Below are positions 4,383-13,378 of a DNA stretch of 21,579 nt, one piece after another. Source of the stretch: a virus. The notes under the pieces were generated by a model that was given only the letters and a program-made list of their open reading frames with translations, ran no database searches and had not been told where the DNA came from. The stretch spans positions 1 through 21,579 of the IMG/VR virus record IMGVR_UViG_3300042197_003282, one strand, 5' to 3'. Position 1 is the first letter of the stretch. Each line of letters starts with the position of its first letter. A program made the translations under genes and the position numbers.

Positions 4383-5438
4383 TCATTCTTCCACAGCAGA
4401 AGTATCAGTAGTTGTCACATCTACTTTCAAAAAATCTCGCATGAGCTTGTCAAGGCAGCCATCCTCGTTGCTTTCCCAGCCCTTGCGGAAATGTTTGATG
4501 ATTTCGCCTTCTGAAGTCACGAACATGAGACGATTGCCATCCTTCTTTAAGATGTTTTTCTTCTCTGCAAGATCAGTGAGACCCGAGTAGGGATTCATGC
4601 CAGTTTCATAAGGGATTTTGACCTGCACTCCCTCAAAGGGTTTAGCATAGCGTGTTTTCATGACTTTGCAGGCCGAGCGTATGCCCATGACATCTGAAAT
4701 CTTGTTGCCGTCCTCGTCTTCCTTGAGCTTGAGTTTCTTCATGGCAACAACGATGCTGGAAGCATAGATAAAGCCCTGGCCACCTGAGATCTTGTCATCG
4801 GGATCAAACATGTCCTGGCTGGCATAGGTATGGTTGGTACACACCAGTCCCACGTTGTAAGCGCCAAACATGTTGACGCAGTTGCGCACCAGAGCAGTGA
4901 GACTCTTGGCTTTGCGACCAAGATCGCCTTTCATGTCACCGGCCTCAAACTGATTGACATCAGTGGGAGTAAGCAACATGCCCACGGAATCAATCACAAA
5001 CAACACTTTGGGGCGATCCTCTGCGGTCAGAGCTTTGTAGTCGGCCATGAACGTAGATATAGTTTTAGCCACGTCATCGATCATGGCCATGCTGAGTTTC
5101 AGCAGTTTGCTTTCACTGGTATCCACGCCCAGAGCATGTAACCATGTTTCGTCCAAGGCGTTTTCTGTGTCGATCAACACCACAAAAATGCCTTGCTGCT
5201 GCGCATGTTTCACAATGTTGCCTGAGCAAATATAGCTTTTGCCAGCACCCGATTCGCCTGCAAACACAGTTACTTTGCCCAGGGGGATGCCCTTGTCAAA
5301 ATCTCCCGATATGAGATAGTTTAGAGCATAGTTTCCGGTGCTGATCCAGTCTGTGGGGTCATTGAATCCCACAGAGAGACCGTCAATGGATTTAGTGATT
5401 TCCTTGCGGAACTTTGAAACGTCGAAGGGTTTTGCCAT
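4383..5438 (-). CDS. uvsX: UvsX, RecA-like strand-exchange recombinase
   Basis: 351 aa, slightly shorter than T4 UvsX (391 aa). UvsX forms ATP-dependent filaments on single-stranded DNA and drives recombination-dependent replication and repair with UvsY and gp32. Visible motifs are Walker A GESGAGKS (residues 61-68), a LIDTEN segment (88-93) carrying the RecA-type catalytic acid region, and Walker B KVLFVIDSVGML (144-155). A Gln/Asn-rich stretch NQFEAGDMKGDLGRKAK lies near residues 160-176, and the ISGGQGFIYAS region probably corresponds to DNA-binding loop L2. The ATG at 5438 has a Shine-Dalgarno (AGGAAAA). The upstream gene ends 13 nt away, so uvsX is likely co-transcribed with the AT-rich island and perhaps with the promoter at 6317-6345. 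Confidence 0.96.
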   Translation of the reverse strand: MAKPFDVSKFRKEITKSIDGLSVGFNDPTDWISTGNYALNYLISGDFDKGIPLGKVTVFAGESGAGKSYICSGNIVKHAQQQGIFVVLIDTENALDETWLHALGVDTSESKLLKLSMAMIDDVAKTISTFMADYKALTAEDRPKVLFVIDSVGMLLTPTDVNQFEAGDMKGDLGRKAKSLTALVRNCVNMFGAYNVGLVCTNHTYASQDMFDPDDKISGGQGFIYASSIVVAMKKLKLKEDEDGNKISDVMGIRSACKVMKTRYAKPFEGVQVKIPYETGMNPYSGLTDLAEKKNILKKDGNRLMFVTSEGEIIKHFRKGWESNEDGCLDKLMRDFLKVDVTTTDTSAVEE

Positions 5439-5451
5439 TGTAATTTTCCTG

Positions 5452-6261
5452 TTAAAAATGAAGTGACATATATTTCTTGTAAAAAAAACTGATCAATTCT
5501 GGAGAAAAATCTGTTAGACTAAAGTTTTCGTAGAGATTTTTCATCGAGTTTAAAAATGCCTCTGTATCAAAGTAGCTTTGGTCTACATCATATATTATAA
5601 CTTGATTCTGTATTAAATGTACACGATAAAATTGTCCAATTTCTTCAACTATGCTTTGATCCAATGCATCAAACTCGGTTACATCATAGCCATGCCGTTG
5701 GAATTCTTCCCAATCAGGCCAGCTTGAACCTCGCAACATGTTGTATTTTTCCACACAATAGTCTCGGCATAACCTAGGGGGGTTGTGCCTAGGAGGATCT
5801 GGTTGTTTTTTACGCAAGCATATGTCTTGGAACTTGCGAGAATTTATCAAACGAACCACTGTGGCGTTTGGCCAAACCTGGCATAAACTAAGTGGTTCCA
5901 TGGTATGATCGGTTATCAAAAAACGCATCGTTGAATAACATAATTTTTTCGTTATGTCGTTGAGGTTGCCCTTGATACCTTGGGGCCAGGCGTTCCAGTA
6001 AATGTCTTCACCATAAAGTTGTCCATCCCCGTGTTCAAAGTTACGCCAGAGATGCATCTTATCGCGCGGTGGTAAGGTCTTTAACACAATCTGTAATCTA
6101 TAGTCATAATCTGTGGGATTTTTTAACAAATGTTCAGCTGCCACGGGATCTTGGGGACAAAAATCTTTACTGAGTGATAAGCAGTTGCCTAAGAATTTAC
6201 CACCTGAAAATGGCAGAAACGACATGATCACGGCGTTTGTTGAATTAAAGCTATCAATCAT
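5452..6261 (-). CDS. Unknown protein, copy B of a duplicated family; sulfotransferase-like N-terminal loop
   Basis: 269 aa, a clear paralog of the protein at 7967-8782: well over half of aligned residues look identical. Shared landmarks are NAVIMSFLPFxGGxFLGNC near the N-terminus, LSLSKDFCPQ, a MHLW segment, NATVVRLINSR in the middle, WPDWExFQRHGYD, and VIIYDVDQSYFD before the C-terminal LFYKKYxSLHx. The N-terminal beta-strand/Gly-loop/helix, followed by the NATVVRLINSR strand, recalls the PAPS-binding loop and 3'-phosphate site of sulfotransferases. I cannot confirm a sulfotransferase fold from the sequence alone. The gene is AT-rich compared with flanking regions. A sigma70-like promoter lies about 55 nt upstream of its ATG. 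Context suggests a role in modifying surface carbohydrate. Confidence 0.85.
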   Translation of the reverse strand: MIDSFNSTNAVIMSFLPFSGGKFLGNCLSLSKDFCPQDPVAAEHLLKNPTDYDYRLQIVLKTLPPRDKMHLWRNFEHGDGQLYGEDIYWNAWPQGIKGNLNDITKKLCYSTMRFLITDHTMEPLSLCQVWPNATVVRLINSRKFQDICLRKKQPDPPRHNPPRLCRDYCVEKYNMLRGSSWPDWEEFQRHGYDVTEFDALDQSIVEEIGQFYRVHLIQNQVIIYDVDQSYFDTEAFLNSMKNLYENFSLTDFSPELISFFYKKYMSLHF

Positions 6262-6411
6262 TGGACTTTAATGTGGATATAGTTTTGGACATGTAAATGT
6301 CCTCTGTAATTAGAATATTGTAAACGACTTAAGAAAATTTTGCAATATATTCCGAATAATGTTGACTTCCAAAATGTCATCGCGATATCCGTGTTATATA
6401 CCGTGTATTCA
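6262..6411. other. AT-rich intergenic region with a short hairpin and direct repeats
   Basis: This is a gap of 150 nt in a genome where most gaps are under 20 nt. It holds the candidate promoter described separately and a perfect 6-bp hairpin GGACAT-loop-ATGTCC at 6287-6302 without a T-run on the minus strand, so it is not a terminator. On the minus strand, just after the upstream stop, it also has two adjacent near-copies of ACACGGTATA/ACACGGATAT. No convincing gene is present. Confidence 0.5.
6317..6345 (-). promoter_or_regulatory. Candidate sigma70-like promoter upstream of the 269-aa gene and uvsX
   Basis: The minus strand reads TTGCAA, 17 nt, TACAAT: four of six bases match the -35 consensus and five of six the -10, at the optimal spacing. 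It lies in the 150-nt intergenic gap 6262-6411, the largest in the window, about 55 nt before an ATG. An early/middle-type host promoter here could drive the paralog B gene and uvsX-uvsY. Because the gap is AT-rich, a chance match is possible. Confidence 0.4.
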
Positions 6412-7215
6412 TTACATTAGTAATTTCTGGAATTTAAGTGCAGATTGCTCCAAACTTTCGACCTCTTTTTGTCGTGTAAAAAAGTTGTCAAAACTCCCAC
6501 ACAGCACGTGTTTGGTAAACAGATAATGCACATAACTGCCCGGATGAGATCTGTATCTATCATGAAACCAACTTAGGTCTTCGAGACAAGCGTAACCGAT
6601 GAGTCCAGGTAGATAGATTCCATCTAACTCCACGGGAACAGTATCACACAAAATATTTTCAATTAGTTTTGTTGAAGTGCATTCAGCTTTGGTAAGCTCG
6701 CCGGAATTCAGTTGTGTTTCTGTCACTGATAGGATTGGACTTTCAAACAAAATGTAGTAGCTCCAATTTTTAGATTTGCACACCCCTTGAAACCATTGTA
6801 CCATCATCAGGGTCTCAAAGGCTTGATAAGTCATGCTGAAATAGTTTTCTTTGTAATGTTCTTTCCATAACGGGAAATGCGAACCCGTACACCAAAATCC
6901 ATGTGCGTCATTCTCGTCCAAAAACAATATCGGATGTTTTTCTTTTCTCAATGCGTCTACGATCAATGGATTTTCTACATACCAGTCCCATTTGTCTATG
7001 GATGTCAATTGTAATATAATCAAGGGAGGTTTATCACATGCAAGTGCTGCTTTTATGGCTTTCAAAATGATGGCTTTGTTCCCAAGGCCTTTGACACTTA
7101 AATTTCTCACGTTGGTCAATCCATACAATTCTATGATCCACGTGGCCCAAGTAGGCCAGACCATGTCATTAGTGATACTGGATCCAGAGATAATTATGGG
7201 ATTATTTTTTTCCAT
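6412..7215 (-). CDS. SGNH/GDSL-hydrolase-like protein (first type)
   Basis: 267 aa. An N-terminal IIISGSSITND strand-turn places a candidate nucleophile Ser at residue 12, as in SGNH block I. NLSVKGLGNKAI supplies the Gly and Asn of the oxyanion hole, LIILQLTSIDKWDWY resembles block III, and SHPGSYVHYLF near residues 223-233 supplies a late His (H224) like block V. The segment WCTGSHFPLWKEHY in the middle is distinctive and is shared, as I recall, with proteins of uncultured marine phages. SGNH enzymes often add or remove O-acetyl groups on polysaccharides, and the neighbouring sugar genes fit that role, though activity is not shown. The start overlaps the upstream SGNH gene by 14 nt. The gene is AT-rich: one sampled 60-nt line has 21 G/C. 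Confidence 0.75.
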   Translation of the reverse strand: MEKNNPIIISGSSITNDMVWPTWATWIIELYGLTNVRNLSVKGLGNKAIILKAIKAALACDKPPLIILQLTSIDKWDWYVENPLIVDALRKEKHPILFLDENDAHGFWCTGSHFPLWKEHYKENYFSMTYQAFETLMMVQWFQGVCKSKNWSYYILFESPILSVTETQLNSGELTKAECTSTKLIENILCDTVPVELDGIYLPGLIGYACLEDLSWFHDRYRSHPGSYVHYLFTKHVLCGSFDNFFTRQKEVESLEQSALKFQKLLM

Positions 7216-7816
7216 CTATCACAGACTGTATGATATCAAATACCAACTTATTACCTGCGTCGCTGAGATGGTTGTGGATGCCCGGATGAGCCAGTTGTAC
7301 TCCAGATAGGTCAACAAAATCTTTTACTTTGGGATCAGATGTCACTGGACAAATAAAATTGTTTACTTGTATACATCTAATATTTTTTAGTCGATCATGT
7401 ATGGAATTTACCAGCAACCTATACATTTCTTCTTGATAATCACCGTCGAAATGATCTTGAAAAAATCTATTGGCCGACCAAAGAGATCTGTTGAATATTG
7501 ACTTTGGTCTACTGGCATGATATCCAATATCCCCCATCGATAAATCTGCATTGGCATGCAGAGAATCTTGATGATGTACCGGGTGTCGTCTGGTATGCAC
7601 ACGGTAGGGACTTGTGTGGGATATTATCACAATGTCAAATGAGTCAATGTTGTTTTGTTGTTGGACCTGCTGATATATCTTGTACTCTCCCACTCCAGCC
7701 TGAGCAACATTGGTCACATCGTAATGTTCCGCCAGCAGATTTACCCAACCTTTACCCAAAGGGTATTTGACCGTCCAATCTGCAGCAAAACTATCACCGG
7801 TTATTAATATTTTCAT
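7202..7816 (-). CDS. SGNH-hydrolase-like protein (second type)
   Basis: 204 aa from the ATG at 7816; a TTG directly before it is a less likely start. The N-terminus MKILITGDSFAADW is a textbook GDS block I with nucleophile Ser9. NVAQAGVGEYKIYQQV gives the oxyanion Gly. IVIISHTSPYRV fits block III with the usual Asn replaced (SHTSP). HNHLSDAGNKLV near residues 181-192 gives the catalytic His (H183) and a following Asp. Such proteins act as esterases or acyltransferases on carbohydrates. It lies next to another SGNH-like gene but the two are not close relatives by eye. Upstream is a 147-nt AT-rich gap; only a poor ribosome-binding site (AAAGG, 3 nt) is visible. Confidence 0.8.
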   Translation of the reverse strand: MKILITGDSFAADWTVKYPLGKGWVNLLAEHYDVTNVAQAGVGEYKIYQQVQQQNNIDSFDIVIISHTSPYRVHTRRHPVHHQDSLHANADLSMGDIGYHASRPKSIFNRSLWSANRFFQDHFDGDYQEEMYRLLVNSIHDRLKNIRCIQVNNFICPVTSDPKVKDFVDLSGVQLAHPGIHNHLSDAGNKLVFDIIQSVIDGKK

Positions 7817-7819
7817 CAA

Positions 7820-7966
7820 CCTTTGTTCACGTGCTCTTGGATATACCTACACAAAACCGCATGTTCTGTCGTTGGAATTATCGTTGTGTTATAGAAATTT
7901 ATCTATAAATTTACCATCAAACCGTAAGAATCTGCAACCTACTAAAAAATCACTTGACATATTCAC
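7820..7966. other. AT-rich intergenic region with an inverted repeat
   Basis: 147 nt without a convincing gene. It contains a perfect 8-bp inverted repeat AAATTTAT-CT-ATAAATTT at 7895-7912, which could be a regulatory site or simply reflect AT-richness. A 23-codon minus-strand ORF (7960-7889) was considered and rejected. I see no good sigma70 or late promoter here. Confidence 0.4.
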
Positions 7967-8782
7967 TTACAAATGCAGAGATATATATTTCTTATAGAAC
8001 AAACTGATCAAGTCACGAGAAAAATCTGTCAGACCAAAGCTTTCATAAAGACTTTTCACCGATGTTAAAAATGCATCAATGTCAAAATAGCTTTGATCTA
8101 CATCATAAATTATGACTCGATTTTGCAATGTATGGCAACGATAATGTTGCCCAATTTCGTTGATAGTATCCTGGTATAACGCCCCGCATTTGGTCGCATC
8201 ATAGCCATGCCGTTGGAATACTTCCCAATCGGGCCAATTTGGGCCTCGTAATCTGTTGTATTTTTCCAGCATGTAGTTTCCGTTGAAGTACAATGGGTCG
8301 TCGGTTCGAACTGTTACATCAGCTGGTTCTTTTTTATCCAACGATATACTTTGGAAATTGCGAGAATTTATCAAGCGAACCACCGTGGCGTTTGACCAAA
8401 CCTTGCATAAACCAAACGGTTCCATTGAGTGGTCATTCAACAAAAAACGCATGCCTGACGCACATATTTGCCTTGTGATGTCGTTGGGTTGTTTATTGGA
8501 GCCTGCTATCCATAAGTGAAAACAACCTCGGCCATAAAGGTGTTGATCTTTGTTCTCAAAATACTGCCAAAGATGCATCTGATCTGGCGGTGGCAAGGTT
8601 TTTAAAACCGTTACTAATCTATAGTCATAGTCTGTGGGTTTTTTCAAAAGATATTCAGCTGCAATCGAATTTTGCGGACAAAAATCTTTGCTGAGTGATA
8701 AGCAATTGCCTAAAAATCTTCCCCCGGCAAATGGCAGGAAGCTCATGATCACTGCATTATTGGAACTCCAGACATCCATCAT
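7967..8782 (-). CDS. Unknown protein, copy A of a duplicated family; sulfotransferase-like N-terminal loop
   Basis: 271 aa, paralog of the protein at 5452-6261, with the same order of conserved blocks: NAVIMSFLPFAGGRFLGNC, LSLSKDFCPQ, TDYDYRL, NATVVRLINSR, NWPDWEVFQRHGYD, VIIYDVDQSYFD and a C-terminal LFYKKYISLHL. The least conserved part is residues about 155-180, where the two copies differ almost completely, suggesting a specificity loop. The ATG at 8782 overlaps the stop of the 316-aa gene (ATGA). Function is unknown; a nucleotide- or PAPS-binding transferase is a reasonable guess from the Gly-rich first loop. The two copies bracket the pair of SGNH-like genes, so the unit A-SGNH-SGNH-B may have arisen by duplication. 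Confidence 0.85.
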   Translation of the reverse strand: MMDVWSSNNAVIMSFLPFAGGRFLGNCLSLSKDFCPQNSIAAEYLLKKPTDYDYRLVTVLKTLPPPDQMHLWQYFENKDQHLYGRGCFHLWIAGSNKQPNDITRQICASGMRFLLNDHSMEPFGLCKVWSNATVVRLINSRNFQSISLDKKEPADVTVRTDDPLYFNGNYMLEKYNRLRGPNWPDWEVFQRHGYDATKCGALYQDTINEIGQHYRCHTLQNRVIIYDVDQSYFDIDAFLTSVKSLYESFGLTDFSRDLISLFYKKYISLHL

Positions 8783-9729
8783 TGCTGTTGGTAATAATTG
8801 ATATACTTGCCACTAAAATAATGATCGTGATTATGTTCAATAGTGTCGTATTCCATTTCATACAAATCACGCCGATCATCAGAGCTCAGCACAGAAAATT
8901 TTGAGATCATCGATATTAGCTCTACCAATCTCTCTACGGGATTCACTATGGCATCAAAACTATAATCAAATATACGATTGTACTGACGGAAACCCCAATA
9001 GCGTTCAAGGTGATCATGCCAGCCAGGCTGCGCATAGGCCAAAAACAAACCTCGCGTGACCACGCTGTATAAAAACTTTTCTGTGACGAAAGGATGATAG
9101 CTGGTGGCTAGGGTTTCGCTCACTAGATGCAGAAAACTCTTGGTGAGCTGGTGCTGGAGACCGTAGATGTTCTGGGCATGATTATATTGCACATGTCCAA
9201 AGCTATAGATACGGTTGAAAAATTCTTGGCTGTCAGCGCCTATGAAAAATCGTTTATAAAATCTGTGTCGATCGAGATCCAGATAGTCGCCAAGATGCCC
9301 ATCAAGTTCATCTGTGGTGTATCGAAAGTTTTTGCTACAAGTCTCTGGATCAAAATACCCCCATCTTTGAAGCGCTGACACCAACAGCTTTCTGCTGACA
9401 TGTGGAGACCCGTTGAAACTGCAGAGAAAATTCTTGTATTCTAGTTCAGGATGATATCGATAGTCAACAAACGAATCGAACAACTTTCGGGTGCTATCAT
9501 CCCATGTGCGGAAAAAATCAAGATTAGGGTAGAATTTTTGTACAGAGTCGGTAATTATCCCAGCATAATGTATTTGTATCTTTCGACGTCGTTCATAACA
9601 ATATCGATCTATTTGTGTCAATAATGGATTATGATAGCGTTGATCAAATCCACCTATGTGGTCAACGAGGCAGATCTGATCCGGTAATTCTTCGGGTATG
9701 CCAAGCGCAGATATGCAGAGCGTCAACAT
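8779..9729 (-). CDS. Putative glycosyltransferase (GT10/fucosyltransferase-like C-terminus)
   Basis: 316 aa. Residues about 99-130 read NFLCSFNGSPHVSRKLLVSAL, the kind of 'short conserved strand, then Arg, then helix' seen in uncharacterised phage glycosyltransferases. The second half has SFLHLVSETLATSYHPFVTEKFLYSVVTRGLFLAYAQPGWHDHL followed by YWGFRQYNRIFDYSFD and NPVERLVEL, which follows the GT10-like pattern 'VSET...TEK...PG....L...GF..F....D......ER'. (The long segment is split here as LVSET, FVTEK, AQPGW and GFRQYN.) The usual Lys-rich nucleotide contact TEKTFKPI is changed to TEKFLYSV, so donor binding may differ. The ATG at 9729 overlaps the amidinotransferase stop by 7 nt; a late-type box lies 46 nt upstream. 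The fold is a moderate-confidence call. Confidence 0.7.
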   Translation of the reverse strand: MLTLCISALGIPEELPDQICLVDHIGGFDQRYHNPLLTQIDRYCYERRRKIQIHYAGIITDSVQKFYPNLDFFRTWDDSTRKLFDSFVDYRYHPELEYKNFLCSFNGSPHVSRKLLVSALQRWGYFDPETCSKNFRYTTDELDGHLGDYLDLDRHRFYKRFFIGADSQEFFNRIYSFGHVQYNHAQNIYGLQHQLTKSFLHLVSETLATSYHPFVTEKFLYSVVTRGLFLAYAQPGWHDHLERYWGFRQYNRIFDYSFDAIVNPVERLVELISMISKFSVLSSDDRRDLYEMEYDTIEHNHDHYFSGKYINYYQQQ

Positions 9730-10859
9730 CGGTCGAGATCATTAGTAACGCAGTGTATACCACAATCCCAAAAATATTTATGACGAAACGGACTTACATG
9801 TACCGTGATTCCATGTCTAGCACAGGCTCGTTCTACTTGTTCGTTGTAAGTGCTGACTATGATATTTTTTGGATCTACGATGAGTATGTTCACGTCAAAC
9901 ACAGTTTCGCTGACCTGGCCCACCCATTCATCAAAGTAATAATCAACCGAATGTTGTAGATCAAGATCATGCTCGAAGCCCGGTATAAACCAACGGCCTT
10001 TGTTGCGTTTCATGGAAAATTCAAACTCTCGCATGTGAGCATAGTTGCTGGGTGGCAAATATATTACTTCCCAGCCCGGAAAGGTGTCGGCGTAGGTAGG
10101 CACATCATTTAGACTGATTATGAGTCCAGGAGTAACCGGGCAATACACTGAATCTCCATGCCCACCTGCATTGACGACCCGATTCTGAGTATCGGGAAAT
10201 AAGTCATTGACTTGGTCAAGTATGGATTGTTTATCGTCGTAATAGGTCTGTGTGGCGAAATATAATTTCTCACCGATCCGGCTTACAAAACATCCATTGA
10301 TAAAATCAAGATCTGTGTACACAACATCACTGCCACTGTGTTTGATCTCATCAAAAACATGGGAATAAAATTTCAGTTTGGCATCAAGATGTTGTTGATC
10401 TTTGTTTTGGAATATGCTAAATTTTTCTTTGATGTCTTGGGAATATTCTGGCCATGATTCATAAAAGTCAGCGGGCCTAACATAATCCGGCCACCATGAT
10501 TGTTTGTTCTGTCTATAAAATACCGACCAAGCATGGCTGGCATTGGGCACCCGGGGAACCCAAAACTTGTTTCGAATCATGACAAAATAATCTCTAGGCG
10601 CTGTTGGTGGTTGCACCCATTTGCCATCTATATAGAGATCATCGAAGTCATTGGGAAACTCAGGACGCAAAACTCTAACACCAAATTGATTTTGCAATAA
10701 TGCTATGAGGTTTTGATAATCTTCCTCGGTTTCCATGGCCATTTTTTCAAAACGGCTTCTGGTCTTGGGATTCTTGATCCAATGATAAAATTCTGGCGGA
10801 TAGGTTTTTCCTACCAGACAAACTTTTAGTGGGTCCCAGTGTTGATAGACGGAATACAT
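9723..10859 (-). CDS. Amidinotransferase / dimethylargininase-superfamily enzyme
   Basis: 378 aa, the usual length of glycine or inosamine-phosphate amidinotransferases. The family forms a five-bladed beta-propeller with a catalytic Cys, His and acidic residue. Visible here are TAPRDYFVMIRNKF (residues 86-99) near the start, VYTDLDFINGC (about 180-190) with candidate acids D183/D185, NAGGHGDSVYCPVTPGLIIS with catalytic His234, and FWDCGIHCVTNDLDR with the catalytic Cys370 close to the C-terminus. These enzymes move an amidino group from arginine to an amine. The neighbouring sugar genes suggest a guanidino-modified amino sugar as product, but free amino acid substrates are equally possible. 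The gene begins just after the gp32 terminator, with only a weak ribosome-binding site. Confidence 0.85.
   Translation of the reverse strand: MYSVYQHWDPLKVCLVGKTYPPEFYHWIKNPKTRSRFEKMAMETEEDYQNLIALLQNQFGVRVLRPEFPNDFDDLYIDGKWVQPPTAPRDYFVMIRNKFWVPRVPNASHAWSVFYRQNKQSWWPDYVRPADFYESWPEYSQDIKEKFSIFQNKDQQHLDAKLKFYSHVFDEIKHSGSDVVYTDLDFINGCFVSRIGEKLYFATQTYYDDKQSILDQVNDLFPDTQNRVVNAGGHGDSVYCPVTPGLIISLNDVPTYADTFPGWEVIYLPPSNYAHMREFEFSMKRNKGRWFIPGFEHDLDLQHSVDYYFDEWVGQVSETVFDVNILIVDPKNIIVSTYNEQVERACARHGITVHVSPFRHKYFWDCGIHCVTNDLDRC
9775..9782 (-). promoter_or_regulatory. T4-type late promoter box CATAAATA inside the amidinotransferase gene
   Basis: CATAAATA on the minus strand, within the last 60 nt of the amidinotransferase gene and 45 nt before the ATG of the 316-aa gene. 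If used, the message would have a leader of about 40 nt. Being inside coding sequence, it is the least certain of the six boxes. Confidence 0.35.
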
Positions 10860-10870
10860 CTTTGATAAGG

Positions 10871-10904
10871 AAAAGTCAGTGGGCAGGAACTCCCACCCAC
10901 TGAC
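10871..10904 (-). terminator. Rho-independent terminator after gp32
   Basis: Seven nt after the gp32 stop, the minus strand has GTCAGTGGG pairing perfectly with CCCACTGAC. The inner bases extend the stem by two wobble and two G-C pairs to an AGTT loop, and TTTT follows. This is the strongest terminator in the window. It isolates gp32 from the accessory island downstream, much as T4 gene 32 has its own terminators. Confidence 0.82.
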
Positions 10905-10910
10905 ACTTAC

Positions 10911-11894
10911 TTACTTCTGCTGACGAGCCCGGATCATGGCCAGGATGTCCTCGGCCTTCTGTGTGGGCGCCTTGGCTGCTGCTACCGGAGCAGCGGCAAC
11001 CGCGGTTTCTTCTTCATCATCAAACTGACTGGCTGCGGCTGGTGCTGCCTTGACCACTGCCGGCGCTGCTTTGACAGCAGGTGCTTCTTCAGTGGTACCA
11101 GCAGGAGCTGCTACACCCGCGGGACGGAAGTACTGCCCCCATCGCGCCGGATCATAGCTCTCACCATTCACGCTGGCTTCAAACATTTCCTGCATGACCT
11201 TCATCTCCACATCCGTGGGACGCTTGGGCAGGAACGCCGAAAGATCAAACAATCCAAACTTTTGGATGGCTTCGGCTTCGGCTTCAGTGAGCGGGCTTTC
11301 CTTGCGGGCCCACTTGCTGGTTGAATAGTCAGCGTATCCACCCTTGCTGGTCTTGGTCACACGGAAGTCCAAGCCTGCTGCAAAGTCAGTGGGCAATTCC
11401 TCCATGTCGGGATCCATGAGAGCCGACTTGATGGTCTGGAAAATCTGTGGACCAATGATAAAGCGCCGGATGGGATTGTCAGGAGTGGTGTCATCACCAA
11501 TGGGATTCTCACGCACAAAGCCCTGGAACACGTAGCTGCGCTTCTTCCAATATCTACGACCTTGGTCTTCCAGGCTCTTGTCTTTGAACCAAGTGCGCAC
11601 CTCATTGAGGATAGGACAGCTTTCTCCCCACATTTCCACGCAGGGTACCTGTACCATGGTGGGCTTGACGTCAGTCTCGCCGCGTATGCCCACAAAGGGC
11701 AGTTTGATCATGGCGCGTTCTACCCAGAAGAATGTGTTTTTGGAGTTGCCATCGGGAAGGAATCGCAGTACAGCTGACTGCCCTTCGCCCATGTTCCAGT
11801 GTGGATAAATTGCTCGATCGCCGCCGGAGTTGTTGCCGCTTTGCTTGGACTCTGCGGCCTGGAGTCGTGCGCGGATTTCTGCTAAAGATGCCAT
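10911..11894 (-). CDS. 32: gp32 single-stranded DNA-binding protein
   Basis: 327 aa, close to T4 gp32 (301 aa). It coats single-stranded DNA during replication and recombination and works with UvsX and UvsY. The OB-fold core is recognisable: IYPHWNMGEGQSAVLRFLPDG (residues about 29-49), FFWVERAMIKLPF, VQVPCVEMWGESCPIL, YVFQGFVRENP and RRFIIGPQIFQTIKSAL. Of the T4 zinc ligands only two Cys (C85, C93) are visible, so zinc binding may be altered or lost. The C-terminal region is Ala/Pro-rich with a short acidic patch FDDEEE and ends AEDILAMIRARQQK, which likely contacts partner proteins. The start has a good Shine-Dalgarno (AGAGGAAA). The leader carries a late promoter, a hairpin and three repeats (separate entries). 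Confidence 0.93.
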   Translation of the reverse strand: MASLAEIRARLQAAESKQSGNNSGGDRAIYPHWNMGEGQSAVLRFLPDGNSKNTFFWVERAMIKLPFVGIRGETDVKPTMVQVPCVEMWGESCPILNEVRTWFKDKSLEDQGRRYWKKRSYVFQGFVRENPIGDDTTPDNPIRRFIIGPQIFQTIKSALMDPDMEELPTDFAAGLDFRVTKTSKGGYADYSTSKWARKESPLTEAEAEAIQKFGLFDLSAFLPKRPTDVEMKVMQEMFEASVNGESYDPARWGQYFRPAGVAAPAGTTEEAPAVKAAPAVVKAAPAAASQFDDEEETAVAAAPVAAAKAPTQKAEDILAMIRARQQK

Positions 11895-11905
11895 AGTTGT
11901 TTCCT

Positions 11906-11938
11906 CTTGTTGCCTATGTTATGCCTAGTATATGCCTA
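11906..11938 (-). repeat. Three tandem 11-nt repeats in the gp32 leader (core TAGGCA)
   Basis: On the minus strand the leader reads TAGGCATATAC, TAGGCATAACA, TAGGCAACAAG, three contiguous 11-nt units sharing TAGGCA. The last one runs into the Shine-Dalgarno of gp32. In T4, gp32 represses its own translation by binding cooperatively to an unstructured leader downstream of a structured 5' element; these repeats occupy the equivalent position. Confidence 0.75.
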
Positions 11939-11941
11939 AGT

Positions 11942-11966
11942 GCATACACTGACCTGCAGTGTACGC
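11942..11966 (-). promoter_or_regulatory. Hairpin at the predicted 5' end of the gp32 mRNA
   Basis: The minus strand has GCGTACACTG, loop CAGGT, CAGTGTATGC: a 10-bp stem with one G-T pair. With the late promoter at 11972-11979, the predicted +1 falls on the first base of this stem. It may nucleate gp32 binding, as the T4 pseudoknot does, or protect the message. No downstream sequence complementary to the loop is seen, so a pseudoknot is not supported. Confidence 0.6.
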
Positions 11967-11971
11967 GAAAG

Positions 11972-11979
11972 TATTTATC
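11972..11979 (-). promoter_or_regulatory. T4-type late promoter box GATAAATA upstream of gp32
   Basis: GATAAATA on the minus strand in the 113-nt gap before gp32, 77 nt before the ATG. Seven of eight bases match TATAAATA. It is the only late-type box of the six followed by a long, structured leader. Confidence 0.6.
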
Positions 11980-12007
11980 AAGTCAAATAGTTTGAGCGGA
12001 AAAACTG

Positions 12008-13378
12008 TTAAATTTTTGCCAAATAGCGCAGGCGGTCTATGCTTTCGCTGCTCATGTTGCTCTGCTTGGTCATCATGACACCGTCGGTGTCGAGATTTTC
12101 CGGAAGGTCATTGGTGATGGTGCGATCCATGATGCCACCGCCGGTGGGTGCGCCTTGAAGGCTTTCCTGAGTGCGACGTACCAGGCCGCGCATGCGACGC
12201 AACACAGATTTGTTTTTCCAGATATTGATGTCGGGATCTCGTGCTGCCAGGCGATCAAACATGGCAAACAGTTGCGGATCGGGTAGTATGTCCGATAAAG
12301 CCTGTTTGGCGTTTATCGCGTCGGGGCCAACCAGCAGGGGAGACTGCATGAGATTGTGTAGCTTCTTGCGCTGTCCCATGGTCATGCCTTGGGCGTTTTC
12401 CGACACTGAATCTACCCAATTGCTGAACTCGTTGAGTTCGTTGCTGGCTGCAGCCACGGTCATGGGAGCCATGCGAGCCAGAATAGGCAGAGCTTCTTCT
12501 ATCCTGTGATCCACTCGCTTTTCGGTAAAGATATCGCGTATTTCATCAACTATGAGTTCGTGACCGTGTATGGTCATGGGATCAAACGACTTGAGCTCTT
12601 GCATGTAGCCCGAATGCCCACTCATGCGCTTGACACGTTCCTTTAACTGGCGATGATGTTGCTGTGCTGCAGACACCATAGCATTGCCTTGCTCACCAAA
12701 ATCCTTGCCGCGTGATGCTCTCAGAAATCTGGACAGCGTGGCCAGTTCGGTCATGAGTTGATTCACATGCACGCCAAAAGCATCGTAGGGATTGCCGCCT
12801 TCCTTGACATGTCGTGCTAGGATACGTCCATGCGTGAGACTGCGGCTAGGCACGCGGAATCTTTCGCCCGAATCGGTTTCCACAAACAGGCTTTCGATAC
12901 AGCGATAGCGTGGCTCACCTTCAGACAAGGGCCTGCGATGCTTGATCATGAGCCGGGTCTGGCGCGGTGGTCCATTGTAGCTGACATCCCGGCGTCCGCG
13001 GAAGCTCTCAAACAGGCTTTCGCTCAGGGCAGCTATGCCCTGCAGATTGTATTTGAGTTGGCTGATGTCTTTGAGATCGAATTTTTTGAAATCGTTGCGG
13101 GTGCTGAAATTTTTCAGCTGTTCTAGGAACTCATACCAGCGTTTGCGGTCTTCGCTTTCCATGCCGCGTCCCAGGTTATCGCCGTAGTACACAGCCATGC
13201 TGCGGTCCGCACCCAGCATTATGACCACGCTGCCGTAGTTTTGATTTTCGGTGCGCCAATCAAATTTGAACATGATGGCCTTGTCCGGGCTGCTGGGCTT
13301 GTAGTTCTTGTCCAGTGCCTCGGGCTCAAGATTTCGAGTCACCAAGATGTTAAAAAGCTGCTGGGATTGGTTTTGCAT
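12008..13378 (-). CDS. Conserved-looking hypothetical protein between gp17 and gp32
   Basis: 456 aa that I do not recognise from T4. The N-terminal third mixes strands and turns (FKFDWRTENQNYGSVVIMLGADRSMAVYYGD, here abbreviated to FDWRTEN...SVVIMLG...VYYGD), with IKHRRPLSEGEPRYRCIESLFVE around residue 150-175. The middle and C-terminal two thirds are predicted to be mostly helical and charged, with RRMRGLVRRTQESLQ near residue 390, and the protein ends SIDRLRYLAKI. No signal peptide, membrane segment or nucleotide-binding loop is visible. Its size and place directly after the packaging motor suggest a head, neck or replication-associated role. The ATG at 13378 has no Shine-Dalgarno; a GCTAAATA box ends 5 nt before it. 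Confidence 0.85.
   Translation of the reverse strand: MQNQSQQLFNILVTRNLEPEALDKNYKPSSPDKAIMFKFDWRTENQNYGSVVIMLGADRSMAVYYGDNLGRGMESEDRKRWYEFLEQLKNFSTRNDFKKFDLKDISQLKYNLQGIAALSESLFESFRGRRDVSYNGPPRQTRLMIKHRRPLSEGEPRYRCIESLFVETDSGERFRVPSRSLTHGRILARHVKEGGNPYDAFGVHVNQLMTELATLSRFLRASRGKDFGEQGNAMVSAAQQHHRQLKERVKRMSGHSGYMQELKSFDPMTIHGHELIVDEIRDIFTEKRVDHRIEEALPILARMAPMTVAAASNELNEFSNWVDSVSENAQGMTMGQRKKLHNLMQSPLLVGPDAINAKQALSDILPDPQLFAMFDRLAARDPDINIWKNKSVLRRMRGLVRRTQESLQGAPTGGGIMDRTITNDLPENLDTDGVMMTKQSNMSSESIDRLRYLAKI

Follow-up and report, generated by a model that had tools for sequence, protein, structure and literature searches.

The gp32 leader described here is, with roughly even confidence on our part, a candidate autogenous translational operator that would be T4-like in action but is built from other sequences. 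We favor this reading because the elements of the leader are conserved and nearly exclusive to gp32, its hairpin covaries, the downstream protein is predicted to have the gp32 fold, and repeats also occur in the leaders of T4 and some other gp32 lineages. The window analyzed is an entire IMG/VR record of 21,579 bases, and the leader lies on its minus strand between the stop of a 456-aa gene at 12008 and the start of gp32 at 11894. Direct reading confirmed the late box, the 10-bp hairpin at the predicted +1, and the three 11-nt TAGGCA units running into the Shine-Dalgarno that the initial annotation had listed, and located a sigma-70-like promoter absent from it (TTGACT, 17 nt, TACACT; 9/12 match):

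11981..11986, minus strand: sigma-70-like -35, TTGACT (read from sequence)
11972..11979, minus strand: late-promoter-like box, GATAAATA (read from sequence)
11942..11966, minus strand: 10-bp hairpin (fold, shuffles, covariation in relatives)
11966-11957, minus strand: hairpin left arm, GCGTACACTG
11958..11963, minus strand: sigma-70-like -10, TACACT, inside the hairpin left arm
11956-11952, minus strand: hairpin loop, CAGGT
11951-11942, minus strand: hairpin right arm, CAGTGTATGC
11938-11933, 11927-11922, 11916-11911, minus strand: three TAGGCA units, spacing 11
11902..11907, minus strand: Shine-Dalgarno AGAGGA, a few bases before the ATG
from 11894, minus strand: gp32 ATG
10911..11894, minus strand: gp32, single-stranded-DNA-binding protein, 327 aa (PHROG and structure match)

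T4-type late transcription starts 6 nt after the late box, and this predicted +1 is the first base of the window hairpin (11966), whose 10 pairs include one G-U. Dinucleotide shuffles of the 85-nt leader gave a hairpin of at least 10 bp in 20 of 5000 cases and at least three TAGGCA in 4 of 20,000, while any 6-mer appeared three times in 174 of 20,000. The predicted RNA fold had a z of -2.63, with 3 of 200 shuffles equally stable, and a test for exact 5-mer repeats, applied to the final 60 nt, gave p = 0.0025. TAGGCA occurs 13 times on the two strands of the window, and the gp32 leader is its sole cluster. Rfam returned no match for the window, none for 11800-12050 up to an E-value of 1, and none for 7 other loci, the T4 gene 32 region among them; a search of the open-access literature found no description of this AGGCA leader. 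By itself, the window leader is modest evidence, and the relatives carry the weight.

The protein encoded downstream matched PHROG 1192 (5.5e-68) and PHROG 224 (1.5e-10); the Pfam gp32 profile scored 20.1 bits, below its cut-off of 26.8, and a PDB sequence search gave no match. Its AlphaFold2 model (34 sequences, mean pLDDT 71.1, pTM 0.62) aligned with the gp32 cores of RB69 (2a1k; Z 14.0, 2.8 A, 195 aligned) and T4 (1gpc; Z 13.9, 2.7 A, 192 aligned), the best non-gp32 structure reaching only Z 4.0, and Foldseek gave 2.0e-07. As modeled, the window protein has the T4/RB69 gp32 core fold, and since the model matches both cores, a comparison with T4 is fair despite the lack of a PDB sequence match. 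The 456-aa gene upstream belongs to a phage structural family (PHROG 13484, 2.1e-11). Directly after the gp32 stop lies a strong terminator-like hairpin (10875-10904, minus strand; 13 pairs, 8 of them G-C, with a T-rich tail), and gp32 is therefore probably a single-gene transcript. Some 5.4 kb of ORFs (5452-10859) separate gp32 from uvsX (4383-5438); among 11 named phage records, 8 annotate the gene that follows gp32 as RecA/UvsX-like or as a recombination protein. This interval includes a clearly paralogous pair of ORFs (5452-6261 and 7967-8782, minus strand) that flanks two others, both members having NAVIMSFLPF.GG.FLGNCLSLSKDFCPQ near their start.

Near relatives were represented by 80 IMG/VR loci with gp32 identities of 67-74%, which gave 81 leaders including the window; 8 were dropped because they had no ATG at the match start or fewer than 110 nt, and of the 73 left, 66 were unique. 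AGGCA was present in all 66, in 177 copies (one copy in 3 leaders, two in 17, three in 44, and four in 2); the density was 26.8 per kb over the 100 nt preceding the ATG and 0-6.2 per kb in all remaining 100-nt bins of these loci. Its complement occurred a single time in the last 100 nt of these leaders. A separate count over the last 80 nt gave 290 copies on the mRNA strand vs. 1 on the complement. In many leaders, the final copy doubles as the Shine-Dalgarno (GAAAGGCAAC). Loss of both hairpin and repeats in close relatives, which the initial annotation took as evidence against an operator, was seen in none of the 66. The regular phasing that it expected to be conserved did not hold up, since only 6 of 111 spacings were 11 nt; spacings varied between 9 and 54 nt, clustering around 13-14 and 26-29, and we rejected 11-nt phasing as a functional feature. 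In predicted folds, AGGCA was no more open than other G/C bases (0.479 vs. 0.496; more open in 44 of 100).

To what extent the array belongs to gp32 was assessed in four long relatives, using 514 leaders that had 25 or more intergenic nt and genes called by a simple ORF rule. At least two AGGCA copies were found in 4/4 gp32 leaders vs. 2/510 other leaders, the latter preceding a 110-aa ORF of unknown family and a DNA polymerase gene. The polymerase gene (L113:13355-15058, minus strand, in G005; PHROG 405, 1.4e-63) has three AGGCA in its leader. A replication regulon was rejected, the G005 polymerase being a single case with no second homologue among the fetched loci, and so was a genome-wide AGGCA leader code, the motif occurring at 1.1-2.2 per kb in leaders of the four long relatives. 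An IMG/VR scan for three AGGCAAC in a row found at least 120 stretches; of the 80 loci fetched, 32 lay directly before gp32, 42 within ORFs, and 6 elsewhere, and none was in an evident leader of another gene. By these comparisons, the AGGCA leader array is almost exclusive to gp32.

Pairing of the hairpin is likewise maintained, as the initial annotation had anticipated. Rows dropped before counting were L031 and L266 of 26 (A1), L316 of 24 (A2), and 23 of 42 (A3). The AGGCA class included 89 leaders with TAAATA. Measured from their predicted late +1, the best stem started at -1 or 0 in 16 (19 when the range is widened to -4 to 0) and at +9 to +18 in 64, and 6 had no stem. There are therefore two leader layouts, the window having the first. 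When the window stem was laid on 24 first-layout leaders, 79.8% of cells were paired (slid versions, 51.9% at most), double changes occurred in 6/10 pairs and 16 cells (shuffled, 9.7; 4/500 as high), and G-U pairs were kept. In the ATGGCA sister clade (23 rows), where the hairpin usually begins 10-11 nt past the -10 (8-12 at the extremes, under one -10 assignment), 90.6% of cells were paired, with double changes in 7/8 pairs and 27 cells vs. 10.0 (0/500). The hairpin thus covaries in the gp32 leaders of these relatives. Second-layout stems are often followed by a T run and are terminator-like, and 44/87 AGGCA leaders with a promoter have TTTT within the right arm or directly behind it; the window hairpin has no T run. 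Leaders such as L003 place the gp32 promoter within a terminator-like stem that has a T run, an arrangement that would block read-through from the structural gene yet let gp32's own promoter fire.

The two promoters of the window overlap, and both are common in related leaders. A sigma-70-like promoter with at least 9/12 matches was present in 58 of 68 leaders (23.5% of shuffles), and one with at least 10/12 in 47 of 68 (3.7% of shuffles); TAAATA was present in 59 of 68 (15.5% of shuffles). Among 352 leaders of four relatives, TAAATA was found 88 times on the gene strand and 32 times on the other, while counts over whole genomes were uninformative (185 vs. 159). Sigma-70 transcription starts 7 nt after the -10, and in the window this predicted start, at about 11951, coincides with the opening base of the hairpin's right arm. 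Among the 87 leaders with a promoter, 84 had the -10 within an inverted repeat (stem or loop) and 84 had the start in the loop or right arm, an outcome favored by a stem search that was anchored at the -10. Given a -10 within the left arm, the early (sigma-70) mRNA should, judging from the predicted start positions, lack the hairpin, while late mRNA would begin with the left arm. A hairpin-nucleated operator would therefore act only on late or read-through mRNA.

Adding PA5oct- and Atu_ph07-type queries extended the set to 145 unique leaders (10 of 229 were dropped), many of them closely related, so that the counts are of non-independent events. Two or more AGGCA were present in 99 of the 145. 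Other gp32 leaders carried ACATGGCA, (GG)CTAAYA, CTAAYAT-centered 10-nt units (L264), or AGCACAATT units (Atu_ph07 and L133). The most regular array seen was that of L264, with five 10- to 11-nt CTAAYAT units running into the Shine-Dalgarno; 2 gp32 leaders had no array. A k-mer score allowing mismatches was weak (13/145 at four or more copies vs. 1.7% of shuffles), and exact 5-mers were used instead. This test gave p < 0.05 in 48/100 AGGCA, 5/6 CTAAYA, 5/24 ATGGCA, 1/13 far, and 0/2 other leaders, against a baseline of 23/452 leaders of other genes; T4's own gp32 leader scored 0.014. Repeats are thus common but not universal in gp32 leaders. On the gp32 tree, the 5 motif classes required 5 changes, so that motif class is inherited with gp32; the classes were defined from the motifs themselves, and the agreement reflects inheritance rather than independent proof. 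Of the 24 ATGGCA-clade leaders (L270-L346), 22 have GGCA in the -35/-10 spacer, immediately ahead of the -10, and in many the -35 lies within the inverted repeat TGTAAAAAAGT/ACTTTTTTACA; this may be a DNA-level signal.

The closest known system is the T4 gene 32 operator. PMC535899 and PMC3014915 describe T4 gp32 as binding to a pseudoknot and spreading across UUAAA repeats as far as the ribosome site, and RB69 gp32 as acting in the same way on its own leader; the two sources disagree on whether RB49 retains such an element. How gp32 discriminates its own mRNA from other single strands is called unclear in PMC535899. The window shares with T4 and RB69 a structured 5' element followed by short repeats through the gp32 ribosome site and the same predicted protein fold, and the repeats of both T4 and the window exceed shuffles in the same test. 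However, the T4 operator has a pseudoknot, UUAAA/UAAA repeats, and an A/U-rich leader, whereas the window has a predicted simple hairpin, TAGGCA units, and a sigma-70 -10 inside the hairpin's left arm. The minimum-free-energy fold of the window leader is a plain hairpin, as drawn by a program that cannot represent pseudoknots. By eye, AGGU of the loop might pair with the ACUU that directly follows the stem; a pseudoknot is nonetheless unlikely because there is no linker to cross the 10-bp stem. Considering that UUAAA/UAAA repeats were not found in the window leader and that a pseudoknot is not established, we class it as a candidate operator that is T4-like in layout and not as a member of that group. 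The T4 gene 43 (DNA polymerase) operator is also autogenous and also serves a replication gene, and its structure is a plain hairpin, but it involves another protein, and the passages of PMC3014915 that describe it mention no repeat array. M13 gp5 is a single-stranded-DNA-binding protein that represses translation of a specific mRNA, that of gene 2 (PMC535899), but its target is another gene and the phage is unrelated. STAXI (PMC2864571) is located close to SSB genes, but it consists of a repeated pseudoknot and was set aside. The proposal of a lineage-specific, T4-like operator in the initial annotation thus retains its conserved and nearly gp32-specific leader, its covarying hairpin, and the existence of own repeats in some lineages including T4, and loses the 11-nt phasing.

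Under this proposal, we infer gp32 to be the reader, RNA the site of action, and translational repression the result. Free gp32, once it exceeds the available single-stranded DNA, would bind the AGGCA-bearing leader and spread cooperatively up to the Shine-Dalgarno, limiting its own synthesis; on late mRNA, the 5'-terminal hairpin would be its starting point, the counterpart of the T4 pseudoknot. Counted against this are that the repeats are not universal, that the motif is predicted to be no more open than other G/C bases, and that the sigma-70 transcript should lack the hairpin. In addition, gp32 is generally regarded as binding single strands irrespective of their sequence, and a strict G-containing motif is unusual for such a protein. 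A strict, short, one-orientation motif that reaches the ribosome site would suit a dedicated sequence-specific RNA-binding protein, and the array could be the RNA site of another phage or host regulator of gp32 translation, such as a small RNA or a protein of the RegA or CsrA type. We consider this unlikely: a general regulator should have more targets than the two other leaders found among 510, and the motif class shifts with the gp32 lineage, though plain descent explains that too.

A transcription factor might instead read the DNA and silence or activate the sigma-70 promoter by binding to the GGCA repeats and to the inverted repeat that covers the -10. The position of the -10 in the inverted repeat (partly by construction of the search) and the spacer GGCA of the ATGGCA sister clade fit such a DNA operator, but G-U pairs are retained in the stem, AGGCA lies downstream of the predicted +1 in 157 copies vs. 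13 upstream (leaders with a promoter of at least 9/12), only 7/87 AGGCA leaders have GGCA in the spacer, and AGGCA spacing is variable; we regard it as improbable. Two ordinary parts could also simply adjoin, the hairpin being a 5' mRNA stabilizer (or a terminator that insulates gp32 from the upstream gene, where relatives have a T run) and AGGCA a ribosome stand-by or Shine-Dalgarno-like booster of translation. This agrees with the TTTT of about half the leaders and with the final AGGCA that serves as Shine-Dalgarno in many, but the window hairpin lacks a T run, AGGCA pairs poorly with the anti-Shine-Dalgarno past AGG, and boosters would be expected at other genes also, where arrays are nearly absent (2/510), which leaves it a rather doubtful explanation. 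Chance or neutral sequence, despite the not very rare triple 6-mers of the shuffles, is hardly credible given AGGCA in 66/66 leaders and the covariation of the hairpin.

If the leader is an autogenous operator, its promoters could further constitute a switch, with gp32 free early and autoregulated late, and with RNA specificity residing in a short motif (AGGCA; elsewhere CTAAYA or ACATGGCA) that is exchanged between gp32 lineages; we put this forward only tentatively. The overlapping promoters suggest a simple route to separate control of early and late mRNA, and with 145 leaders that carry lineage-specific motifs beside their own gp32, self-recognition of the mRNA becomes testable by swaps of leader and protein.
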